From positions 124,001 to 188,000 of the forward strand of contig JAQGMR010000006.1 in NCBI GenBank assembly GCA_028292265.1: DNA of 64,000 nt, written 5' to 3'. Every line of letters starts with the position of its first letter. Position 1 is the stretch's first letter. The notes beneath the pieces were generated by a model. It made no database searches, was not told the origin of the DNA, and worked only from the letters and a program-made list of their open reading frames with translations. Source of the stretch: Herminiimonas sp. (GTDB lineage Bacteria > Pseudomonadota > Gammaproteobacteria > Burkholderiales > Burkholderiaceae_D). Positions 1,498 to 58,452 of the stretch are shown one piece after another. A program made the translations under genes and the position numbers.

Positions 1498-2631
1498 ATG
1501 AACAAGATTGTATTGGTAACGAATGAACCGCCGCCGTATCGCGTCCCCGTATTTGATCGAATCGCCAAGTCGGAAGGCGCGCGCTTTCACGTCGTTTTTT
1601 GTTGCAGAAGGGAGCCGAACCGGCAATGGAACCTACCCGCCTTCGAGTTCCGCCACACCTTTCTGAAAGAGCGGATATTTACCCGTAACGGACGGTACAT
1701 CCACAATAATCCCGACATCATCCCCGCACTGCGGCGGTTGAAGCCAGACGTCGTGATCAACGACGGCATGAATCCAACGCATATCTATGCGTTCCTCTAT
1801 GCTGCCGTCCGGGGCATCCCGCACGTTCCCCTGACGGATGGCACGGACGTGTCGGAAGCGTCGTTCGGGTTTCTGCATGTTGGGGTTCGCAAAGTGGTAT
1901 ACCGTCGGTCGACGTGCTTCGTCGCGGCAAGCCAGGGTGGGATCCGTCTCTTTGAACGGTATGGAGTTCCCAGGTCGCGGTGCTACCTCTCGCCACTCTG
2001 TGCCGACAACGACGCCTATCGCAACGTAGGGCACTCCACAAACAGGCCGTACGACCTGGTGTTCACGGGGCGCATGGTGGACGCGAAAAATCCTAGTTTC
2101 GCTCTTCAGGTAGCAAGCGGTGTATCGCGCCGCCTTGGACGGCGAACGAAGATTCTTTTTATCGGGTCAGGGCCACTCGATGACGCATTGAGAGCGCAGG
2201 CAGCCGAACTAGGCGACGATGTCGAAGCTACGTTCGCCGGGTTCGCAAGGCAGGAAGAACTTCCAGCGCTCTATGCGTCTGGGAAGGTATTTCTTTTCCC
2301 GACGGCCGCAGATGTGTGGGGTGTGGTCGCCAACGAAGCGTGTGCGGCCGGCTTGCCGGTGATCGTCTCGCCGTTTGCCGGCGCGGCGGGCGAACTGGTG
2401 GTAGACGGAGTCAATGGATATGTCCTGAACCTCGACGTGCAGTCCTGGGCGGACCACGCGGCGGCGCTGCTTGGGGATGGAGGGCTTTGGCACCGATTTT
2501 CAGATGCCAGTCTACGTAGCGTGTCGCCCTATTCGTTTGACAACGCGGCAGCAGGCATCCTGGATGCGGCGAACAAGGCTGTCGAAATAAGTCGAAATGG
2601 TGCCGCTTCGAATCTGCCGCTGGCACCCTGA
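1498..2631 (+). CDS. Glycosyltransferase family 4
   Basis: This 377-residue protein begins with the usual GT4 N-terminus (KIVLVTNEPPPYRVPVF), in which a beta strand leads into a PPYRVP loop. The C-terminal Rossmann domain carries GRMVDAKNP near 191-199 and DVWGVVANEACAAGLPVI from 272. The last is a variant of the E-x7-E sugar-nucleotide motif, with Asp272 in place of the first Glu and Glu280 as the second. It should transfer a sugar from a nucleotide donor to a growing glycan on the cytoplasmic face of the membrane. The ATG has a poor ribosome-binding site but matches the family start. Its neighbours suggest polysaccharide synthesis. Donor and acceptor cannot be told. Confidence 0.9.
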   Translation: MNKIVLVTNEPPPYRVPVFDRIAKSEGARFHVVFCCRREPNRQWNLPAFEFRHTFLKERIFTRNGRYIHNNPDIIPALRRLKPDVVINDGMNPTHIYAFLYAAVRGIPHVPLTDGTDVSEASFGFLHVGVRKVVYRRSTCFVAASQGGIRLFERYGVPRSRCYLSPLCADNDAYRNVGHSTNRPYDLVFTGRMVDAKNPSFALQVASGVSRRLGRRTKILFIGSGPLDDALRAQAAELGDDVEATFAGFARQEELPALYASGKVFLFPTAADVWGVVANEACAAGLPVIVSPFAGAAGELVVDGVNGYVLNLDVQSWADHAAALLGDGGLWHRFSDASLRSVSPYSFDNAAAGILDAANKAVEISRNGAASNLPLAP

Positions 2632-38705: not shown

Positions 38706-38728
38706 CCACCCAAGAGGGAGGAGACCTG

Positions 38729-39706
38729 ATGAAGAAGCTGAGTGTGGTTTGCGCAGTGGTGGGCTGCATGCTGGGCTTCCTGCCGGGCGCCCAGGCGCGG
38801 GCGGAAGGATTCCCGGATCGTCCAATTCGGCTGATCGTTGGCTTCACGCCGGGTGGGGCGGCCGATTATGTCGGGCGCAATTTTGCCATCGGCATGGAAC
38901 GCGCACTGCGCCAGTCGGTGATCGTTGAAAACAAGCCCGGCGCGGGATCGAGCATCGCGGCTGAATATGTGGCGCATGCCGCGCCGGATGGCTACACCAT
39001 CCTGATCGCGAGCCCAAGCAGCATCGCCGTCAATCCCGCGATCAATCCGAAACAGAGTCCGACCGTTTCGACCCTGGTGCCGATCTCCAAAGTCTCGAAC
39101 TCACCGCTCGTCATCGCGACCAATCCCTCGACCGGTATCAAGTCGATCGCCGAGCTGATCGCGGTGGCGAAGAAGGAGCCGGGCAAACTTAACTTCGCCT
39201 CCGCCGGCAACGGTTCCGCGCCGCATCTGGGCGGCGTATTGTTCAACCAGGTGGCCGGTGTTGATATGGTCCACGTTCCTTTCAAAGGCGGCGCGCCTGC
39301 AATGCAATCCGTGATCGCGGGTGATACCCAAATAGCCTTCGCTACGCCGCCGTCGGTGCTGCCGTTCATCAAGTCGGGCCGCCTTCGCGGGCTGGCGATC
39401 ACGACCACGGAGCGTACGTCGCTGGTACCGGAACTTCCTGGCATGAAAGAAGCGGGCCTGCCTGGTTACAAGCTTGAATTCTGGTACGGGATCTTCGCGC
39501 CACCAGGCACACCGCCAGACGTGGTGAAAAAGCTGTACGAGGCGACCGTCGCCGCCATGCAGCGGCCTGAGATGAAAACCGTGCTCGCCCGTGAGGGCAC
39601 GGACGTGTCGATCTCCAGTTCTCCGGCGGACTTCGCGGCTTTCGTTAAGGAAGATGCGAAATTCTGGGGCAAGCTGGCGAAAGATGCCGCAGTAAAGATG
39701 GAGTAG
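38729..39706 (+). CDS. Bug/TctC-type TTT substrate-binding protein 4
   Basis: A 325-residue periplasmic receptor. The signal peptide MKKLSVVCAVVGCMLGFL ends near AQARA, and the mature N-terminus FPDRPIRLIVGFTPGGAAD has the canonical loop. VHVPFKGGAPAMQSVIAGD is the second block. GGAGGAGA precedes the ATG. It is the last gene of the GntR-associated CoA operon, 23 bases after the MDR gene, so its ligand is likely the acid handled by the CoA-transferase. No permease is linked. Confidence 0.93.
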   Translation: MKKLSVVCAVVGCMLGFLPGAQARAEGFPDRPIRLIVGFTPGGAADYVGRNFAIGMERALRQSVIVENKPGAGSSIAAEYVAHAAPDGYTILIASPSSIAVNPAINPKQSPTVSTLVPISKVSNSPLVIATNPSTGIKSIAELIAVAKKEPGKLNFASAGNGSAPHLGGVLFNQVAGVDMVHVPFKGGAPAMQSVIAGDTQIAFATPPSVLPFIKSGRLRGLAITTTERTSLVPELPGMKEAGLPGYKLEFWYGIFAPPGTPPDVVKKLYEATVAAMQRPEMKTVLAREGTDVSISSSPADFAAFVKEDAKFWGKLAKDAAVKME

Positions 39707-56991: not shown

Positions 56992-57157
56992 CTTCGCTCG
57001 AATCACCACAGAGACTAAGGTTCGAAAGTTAACCTTCTGTGATGCTCGATCGCGAGACGGCCCTTTGACCTCAAGACCCTGTAACGGGTCGCCCCGACGT
57101 AATATTCTGCACCGCGGCTTATTCACGGCACGAATATGAGTTATACGAATTGGAAAG

Positions 57158-57186
57158 CAGACACTGGCCATATCGGCGGCTATAGT
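57158..57186 (+). promoter_or_regulatory. Candidate sigma-70 promoter for sRNA
   Basis: CAGACA (4 of 6 to TTGACA) and TATAGT (5 of 6 to TATAAT) are separated by exactly 17 bases. No gene on this strand follows before the terminator at 57227. Confidence 0.4.
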
Positions 57187-57192
57187 GAATTC

Positions 57193-57258
57193 GTCTCCTC
57201 CAGCCTCTAAAAGGGATGGATTTAAGCCCGGCACCTTCTGGTTGCCGGGTTTTTTTTT
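57193..57258 (+). ncRNA. Candidate small RNA with anti-Shine-Dalgarno 5' end
   Basis: A predicted transcript of about 66 bases, from the candidate start near 57193 to the U-tract of the terminator at 57227-57258. The 5' end contains TCTCCTCC, complementary to a Shine-Dalgarno sequence, and is followed by a mixed linker and a strong terminator. No open reading frame fits. Existence and role are inference from sequence. Confidence 0.35.
57227..57258 (+). terminator. Rho-independent terminator without upstream gene
   Basis: CCCGGCA and TGCCGGG form a 7-bp stem followed by nine T. It works only in the plus direction, yet the neighbouring gene is on the minus strand. Confidence 0.85.
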
Positions 57259-57613
57259 ATTCTGCGCCAAACCCGCGCTCCGCGCGGCCTCCGGGCGCCA
57301 AGCCTGAGGACAGGATTGGCTCGTAGCGCGTGATTGCGTCATACATCCTGACGATCGCACTGATCATCCCATACACCTCGCGATCTTCAATGCCGGAAAG
57401 ATTCTCCATTATTGAGGATCGGTCTGCCTTTTCCTTGTTCCTTACCGCGCCAGTCAGAAGCTTCAAAAATTCGTCCCGAATCTCGGCCGGAACATCCTTC
57501 TTGGAAAGCCGTACCAAGTGGTCAGAACATGCCTGGGCCAGTCGACTTCGCTGTGAATCGGGACCGGCGAGGATTTGTATGGATGAGTGAAAGGCTTCCC
57601 AGGCAGTTGGCAT
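57257..57613 (-). CDS. Hypothetical helical protein
   Basis: A 118-residue protein starting MPTAWEAFHSSIQILAG. The sequence is largely helical and charged (SRLAQACSDHLVRLSKKDVP, IRDEFLKLLTGAVRNKEKAD, VYGMISAIVRMYDAI). GGAGTCCACT before the ATG at 57613 decides the start over an ATG at 57628 and a frame to 57670. No domain recognised; similar small helical proteins occur in Oxalobacteraceae (recollection, not checked). Cytoplasmic. Confidence 0.65.
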   Translation of the reverse strand: MPTAWEAFHSSIQILAGPDSQRSRLAQACSDHLVRLSKKDVPAEIRDEFLKLLTGAVRNKEKADRSSIMENLSGIEDREVYGMISAIVRMYDAITRYEPILSSGLAPGGRAERGFGAE

Positions 57614-57978
57614 AGTGGACTCCGGCATGATGCAGAAAGCGAAAGGAGCGAAAAGGCGGATTGTAACCAACCTTAGAGCAACTTACTTTTAGTAATGTGC
57701 CATTAGACTTCTCGCCAACGTGATAAGCCATCCCATGAACTAGGGGTTTTTCTATGCCTAAGCGGTCCTTTCTTTGTGATCAAGAGAAATTTGCCGGCCG
57801 CCATATTTTGTTGCTAAAGTAGGCACGCCTGCGGCAGACGGCAAAAGGCGCTTTCGAGCGTCTGAATGCCTCAAAGTCGTAACTTCGCGACCTCGAATGT
57901 CCGGTGGCTGCTGGTACCGGCCCTGCAGGTAGCACGACGGCATATACTGGATAAATCGGAACGCAAAGGGAGACGCTC
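57614..57978. other. Divergent intergenic region
   Basis: About 365 bases between the helical hypothetical protein and uspA; no gene recognised. AGGGAGA at the end is the uspA ribosome-binding site. Confidence 0.5.
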
Positions 57979-58452
57979 ATGTATCGGAAAATTCTGGTCG
58001 CCTACAACGGCACCAAGGAAAGCCGTTTTGCGCTGAACGAATGCATCCGTCTGGCACCGGATCCGTCTGCGGAGGTCCATCTTGTGGTCGTGGTTACGCC
58101 GCCCCCCTATCTGCTGGTTGGCGAATATGCCGCGGCAGCCGTGCTAAGCGTGGAAGAGGGCCTGGCCGCGGAGCGGCAAAAGATGGAAATAGAGCTTGGG
58201 GAAGGGAACGCGATGTTGACCGGCGCCGGGATGCGCGTGATAAACCACCTTGAAGTCGGCGAGCCGGCTGACATCATTCAAAGTCTTTCCCAGTCCCTCG
58301 GAATCGAACTGGTGATTGTTGGTCACTCCCGGCACAAGCCGCTCGCCATGCGCTGGTGGCGCGGGTCAATGGATGCAATGCTGGTTGAAAAAGTACGTTG
58401 CAGTCTTCTTGTAGCGGGCGATCCGGTGCAGCACACCCCAAGCAAAAAGTAA
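57979..58452 (+). CDS. Universal stress protein (UspA family)
   Basis: A 157-residue alpha/beta protein. The N-terminal MYRKILVAYNGTKESRFALNE, the middle VINHLEVGEPADIIQSLSQSL and LVIVGHSRHKPLAMRWWRGSM follow the Usp fold. The ATP-binding G-x2-G-x9-G-S motif is altered (GHSRHKPLAM, Arg at the second Gly), though the final GS is kept, so nucleotide binding is uncertain. Usp proteins aid survival in stress. AGGGAGA precedes the ATG. Confidence 0.9.
   Translation: MYRKILVAYNGTKESRFALNECIRLAPDPSAEVHLVVVVTPPPYLLVGEYAAAAVLSVEEGLAAERQKMEIELGEGNAMLTGAGMRVINHLEVGEPADIIQSLSQSLGIELVIVGHSRHKPLAMRWWRGSMDAMLVEKVRCSLLVAGDPVQHTPSKK

Follow-up and report, generated by a model that had tools for sequence, protein, structure and literature searches.

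The DNA analysed here (the window) is a stretch of 64,000 nucleotides from Herminiimonas sp., and it contains a short promoter-terminator unit on the plus strand at 57158-57258. A -35-like hexamer, CAGACA (57158-57163), located within AAAGCAGACA (57154-57163), is separated by a spacer of 17 bases from the -10 hexamer TATAGT (57181-57186). Transcription is predicted to start at G57193, 7 bases past TATAGT and the first base of GTCTCCTCC. The small RNA (sRNA) gene predicted from this start covers 57193-57258 (66 nt), as supported by cmscan and conservation described below. The RNA begins with the seed GUCUCCUCC (DNA GTCTCCTCC, 57193-57201), which is complementary to ribosome-binding sites and whose first six bases are predicted to be unpaired. 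The predicted fold places a first hairpin (UCCA.CCU / GGG.UGGA) at 57199-57220 and a terminator hairpin with its U tract at 57224-57258, where the stem CCCGGCA...TGCCGGG is followed by nine T ending at 57258. A first-pass annotation of this DNA had described a -35/-10 pair with exact 17-base spacing, a start and then a terminator delimiting 66 nt, and the absence of a protein gene on this strand. The coordinates of both hexamers proved to be accurate, the predicted transcript extends from G57193 to the nine T as described, and the plus strand across the sRNA showed no convincing protein gene; a 40-codon GTG ORF occupies 57185-57307 there.

Upstream of the promoter, ATATGAGTTAT (57134-57144, plus strand) is a one-mismatch copy of a box, ATANCNGNTAT, that recurs in relatives and is a putative activator site. 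Downstream, a convergent small ORF on the minus strand (57257-57670), to which no function was assigned by homology, has its stop codon at the terminator U tract; it gave no Pfam or NCBIfam match, and a 50% identical homologue stands beside the sRNA in one related place that carries two labels (L002 and L069). Farther downstream on the plus strand lies a universal stress protein (usp) gene at 57979-58452 (Pfam Usp, PF00582, E 1.5e-19).

Taken on their own, the promoter and terminator signals were weak and barely distinct from shuffled DNA. When 3.5 kb was scanned, two promoter-like sites were counted (shuffle mean 2.0) and eight terminator-like sites (shuffle mean 4.0, sd 2.0); the window holds two copies of TCTCCTCC, where 1.16 would be expected. 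The 66-nt RNA had a predicted folding energy of -27.1 kcal/mol (z -3.56), and 1 of 200 dinucleotide shuffles was equally stable. The case for the element is made by its conservation.

The pattern AAAGCAGA-N16..28-TATANT-N5..9-GTCTCCTCC was searched against a public genome collection, the listing of which may omit records of the window's own genome or a very near one. It gave 97 matches in 93 genome stretches, most of them from Herbaspirillum, Collimonas, Undibacterium, Noviherbaspirillum, and Glaciimonas, and the remainder from Lacisediminimonas, Herminiimonas, Duganella, Paucimonas, unassigned assemblies, and one Bacteroidales MAG (L142). Despite the loose gaps permitted, both spacings agreed within one base in 96 of the 97 matches: the gap pair was (19,7) in 82, (19,6), which is that of the window, in 12, (20,6) in two, and (24,6) in one. 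The sole outlier was the match in the Bacteroidales MAG, which lacks the sRNA body. Conservation of the promoter spacing, including the position of TATAGT, had been set beforehand as one of two tests by which the element could be refuted, and the spacing is kept in relatives. Furthermore, 96 of the matches have at least 60 bases of 3' DNA; TGGATT was present downstream in 95 of these, and 93 satisfied a strict pattern for a GC stem with a T run. Of the three that failed, L142 has no terminator, and those of L125 and L134 are evident but of a form not covered by the pattern. When 68 less-redundant copies were compared, C followed AAAGCAGA in more than 70%, AAAGCAGA itself being fixed by the search pattern.

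When 60 genomes were searched separately at the DNA level, 13 of them, counting the window's own, had matches, and the sRNA was present on reading in 13 of the 16 places outside its own genome. The other three places (L008, L011, and L012) showed no sRNA on reading and were judged to be chance or coding matches. By this comparative evidence, the element looks like a real, conserved sRNA gene.

The usp neighbour also recurs. Of 209 loci searched, 13 have a relative of usp downstream of the sRNA and on its strand; they correspond to 11 distinct places because L002/L069 and L005/L126 are identical sequences from the same places. All 11 fall among the 93 pattern-matched stretches, and the distance from the sRNA start to the usp start is 172-960 nt in these relatives and 786 nt in the window.

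Structural conservation was examined with an alignment of 46 sequences, consisting of the window and 45 copies of less than 90% identity chosen from the pattern matches, L142 and the truncated L062 being excluded. Bases 1-10, the first nine of which are fixed by the search pattern, and UGGAUU were invariant, and each of the 46 predicted folds contained two hairpins and left the first six bases unpaired. RNAalifold gave 10 consensus pairs; in four of these, both partners change in some sequences with pairing maintained, and 6 to 12 of the 46 have the pair broken or gapped; the other six never vary. The first stem of the window includes an unpaired G/A. Only three pairs of the terminator stem were recovered from the MAFFT alignment, which we attribute to the variable length of the terminator loop.

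The element had been reported in the first-pass annotation as belonging to no described RNA family, and this does not hold. Using cmscan, RF02278 (Betaproteobacteria toxic sRNA) was matched at 57192-57258 over the whole model (1-64 of 64) with 45.3 bits and an E value of 1.7e-8. Since this score lies just under the curated gathering cut-off of 50 bits, an Rfam scan of the window at default thresholds was silent on the sRNA and called two tRNAs only. The runner-up, anti-hemB (RF02837), reached 27.3 bits and thus fell short of its own cut-off of 49.5. Two loci that share the usp neighbour scored on both sides of the RF02278 cut-off (47.9 bits for L002 and 53.3 bits for L005). Beyond the full-length match in sequence and structure, the window element has in its predicted fold the arrangement of the family, namely the 5' seed GUCUCCUCCA, two hairpins, and a U tract; it differs in its lower score and in the upper part of hairpin 1, which is shorter and divergent. 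The window copy thus combines resemblance to RF02278 in sequence and predicted structure with the conserved promoter spacing and a terminator. When related loci were scanned, all 13 matched RF02278, with 16 hits of which 10 were above the cut-off; these 13 loci exclude the three places rejected from the 60-genome search.

RF02278 matches were frequent among relatives of the window. At E<=0.01, a match was found in 110 of 116 genomes of the window's family, its own included, and 102 of the 116 had a match over the cut-off; a single genome had up to 22 matches, some of them perhaps weak. Across the order, 164 of 300 genomes matched at E<=1e-4. Among 14 control genomes, one matched at E<=0.01, none over the cut-off, and none matched at E<=1e-4. 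The window's own genome gave 12 hits at E<=10, of which three are convincing (71, 49.2, and 45.3 bits, the last being the window element). At this loose threshold, 13 of the 14 controls also matched, none over the cut-off, so that weak hits mean little; the other nine own-genome hits (33.8 bits or less) were excluded from the copy count, with the reservation that L021 may be a fourth copy. Occurrence in Betaproteobacteria, often in several copies, is a trait of RF02278, and it is seen here both in the three convincing copies and in the spread through the family's genomes. An sRNA family with an anti-Shine-Dalgarno sequence is therefore present in nearly every sampled genome of the window's family (110 of 116), and one of its subtypes has a conserved promoter layout.

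The copy with 49.2 bits (L019, G000:C48:121833-121897) is located on the same contig, about 2.1 kb before the first base of the window, and by eye it has no obvious -10 hexamer at the usual distance. The possible fourth copy (L021, G000:C33:35905-35966, minus strand; 33.8 bits) is divergent, and GTCTCCTCC, a hairpin, and a T run were recognized in it by eye.

The window element has the lowest score of the three convincing copies in its genome and one mismatch in its upstream box, as might be expected if it were a decayed, silent member of the family. We consider this improbable, since the copy still has the promoter spacing, the seed, the two hairpins, and the terminator, and the usp neighbourhood has been retained. 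As judged from its sequence, the window element is a sub-threshold member of the known family RF02278 and an ordinary one, and it adds a copy that is missed at the default Rfam threshold.

RNAs of RF02278 have been published in Burkholderia and Herbaspirillum, and a relative in Bordetella (PMC4603805, PMC5688073, PMC7011215, PMC11722255). Citing papers attribute the family to Kimelman et al. (2012), and Northern blots showed expression in four strains of B. cenocepacia (PMC4603805). The B. cenocepacia members ncS03, ncS05, ncS27, and ncS62 resemble the window element in family, size (57-92 nt), two hairpins, a CU-rich stretch, and several copies per genome (PMC5688073, PMC4603805), and the CU-rich stretch is complementary to ribosome-binding sites (PMC5688073). 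Overexpression of ncS27 slows growth and its silencing speeds growth (PMC5688073); ncS03, ncS05, and ncS27 increase in biofilm, starvation, and glucose medium (PMC5688073, PMC4603805); and, according to a review, ncS27 affects genes for amino acid and carbohydrate use (PMC10987360). Hsnc059, Hsnc063, Hsnc086, and Hsnc107 of Herbaspirillum seropedicae also belong to RF02278, in a genus that has the promoter layout of the window, whereas they score 59.6-64.7 bits and are tabulated as longer RNAs in which the family match begins at base 25-48 (PMC7011215). S17 of Bordetella pertussis has a short form with a 5' end similar to that of RF02278 RNAs, represses several genes, and is Hfq-dependent, but differs in that this short form is processed from a longer RNA (preprint PMC11722255). 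Overexpression of S17 in E. coli left exponential growth unimpaired and had a modest effect on entry into stationary phase (preprint PMC11722255); hence members of the family may differ. By analogy with these published relatives, the window copy may also be expressed, influence growth, and affect metabolic genes.

We consider it very probable that the window element is a 66-nt, trans-acting, double-hairpin sRNA of the RF02278 type, which would be transcribed from a weak promoter with the aid of the upstream box, block ribosome-binding sites with its seed, and reduce the expression of genes for transport and catabolism as growth slows. The activity, targets, and regulation of the window copy are predicted as follows. 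RNA polymerase would start at about G57193 from the weak promoter CAGACA-17-TATAGT, probably assisted by a factor binding the box at 57134-57144, and would terminate where the hairpin and its U tract end, at 57258. Through its unpaired 5' end, GUCUCCUCC, the RNA would then bind a set of mRNAs at ribosome-binding sites rich in purines (GGAGGAGAC and shorter forms of it); ribosomes would be blocked by the pairing, and the expression of transport and catabolism genes would fall as growth slows. The first-pass proposal that the 5' anti-Shine-Dalgarno sequence UCUCCUCC could pair with ribosome-binding sites fits this scheme, as the sequence is suited to such pairing and the proposal agrees with the published work on relatives. 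Silencing of other genes by covering their ribosome-binding sites is probably the function of the sRNA.

Candidate targets were sought in the window's own genome. The pattern GGAGGAGAC-N2..9-ATG occurred seven times, against one for the reversed pattern, and GGAGGAG before ATG 42 times, against 19 reversed. The AC extension was present in 7 of the 42 GGAGGAG...ATG sites, where about 2.6 would be expected by chance (simple arithmetic), that is, at about 2.7 times one in sixteen. This genome-wide evidence for targets of the seed, drawn from motif counts, is weak. One candidate target site within the window, GGAGGAGACCTGATG (38717-38731, plus strand), is predicted at the start of a gene for a TctC-type receptor (38729 on; TctC PF03401, E 1e-68), with a predicted sRNA duplex of -27.3 kcal/mol. 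Four of the seven GGAGGAGAC sites were searched for the protein families of their genes, which are a TctC-type receptor (PF03401), an ABC permease (PF00528), a carboxymuconolactone decarboxylase/AhpD-type protein (PF02627), and a metallo-beta-lactamase-fold protein (PF00753). These four predicted targets fit the theme of transport and catabolism.

The neighbouring usp gene offers two other explanations. Its mRNA might be the chief target in place of a dispersed set, given that the ribosome-binding site of usp in the window, AAGGGAGAC, is predicted to pair with the seed at -14.6 kcal/mol. However, GGAGAC precedes usp in only 3 of 12 cases (the window, L068, and L131, out of the window and the 11 places), and the other nine have other purine-rich sites; the ribosome-binding sites across loci do not support usp as a specific target, and we regard this explanation as unlikely. 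Still less likely is that the element is a 5' leader or attenuator of usp, in which transcripts starting at 57193 would mostly stop at 57258 and read-through would regulate usp: usp does follow the sRNA on its strand at 13 loci (11 places once duplicates are merged, 172-960 nt), but it was matched at E<=1e-4 in only 11 of the 93 stretches (up to 8 kb long and some ending near the sRNA, so that a few may be missed), family members occupy several sites in one genome, a minus-strand ORF intervenes in the window, and the terminator appears complete.

The upstream box, ATANCNGNTAT, is inverted-repeat-like. In 73 of the 97 matches its start precedes AAAGCAGA by exactly 20 bases, and it was found at no other position within up to 90 bases before AAAGCAGA; one of the 97 (L143) comes without any upstream DNA. 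Upstream conservation in the 68 less-redundant copies stops sharply about 36 bases before AAAGCAGA. The window agrees with 14 of the 31 conserved upstream columns, and 24 of 2000 shuffles were as good, which is moderate agreement only; the last six columns of this comparison are one base out of register for the window, and the upstream columns are unaffected. In another own-genome copy, L018, the box is exact (ATAACAGGTAT) and is followed by a -35 region that differs. The exact box is missing at L019 and L021, and none of the nine outside-family loci examined has it within 100 bases upstream of the seed.

A common upstream motif has been reported for three of the four B. cenocepacia RNAs, its letters being given in the supplement (PMC5688073); this motif may or may not correspond to the box found here. 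Neither the fixed upstream box nor the usp neighbourhood was found described in the accessible text of the papers cited here on the family, and either may already be in print. As a tentative extension, which we hold to be possible though short of probable, many double-hairpin RNAs in Oxalobacteraceae would be sibling sRNAs co-activated by one activator acting on ATANCNGNTAT, which lies at a constant spacing from a weak promoter; one signal would then lower the translation of many transport and catabolism genes, and the copies beside usp would link this response to the general stress response. The box offers a practical starting point for identifying the regulator, which is not named in the accessible text of the literature on relatives.

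Other arrangements of RF02278-type RNAs were observed among the loci collected. A second subtype (L031, L033, L039-L042, L047, L055, and others) has by eye a tandem GTCTCCTC(C/T)AT-GTCTCCTCC, a -35 region of another sequence (AATTGG), and a similar upstream box. For a third subtype, GTCTCCTCCACCCTCCTCCTTTGGTGGATT (L030, L034, L035, L044-L046, L056, L058, L221-L223, and L225-L227), no promoter adjoining the seed was seen by eye; these RNAs are therefore perhaps processed from a longer RNA, like ncS27 and S17. Neighbouring RF02278 RNAs form a convergent pair in L014 (1500-1560, plus strand, and 1715-1781, minus strand) and tandem pairs on the plus strand in L010 (1134-1201 and 1512-1576) and L004 (1269-1333 and 1516-1580), and L081 carries three tandem sRNA copies 185 bases apart.
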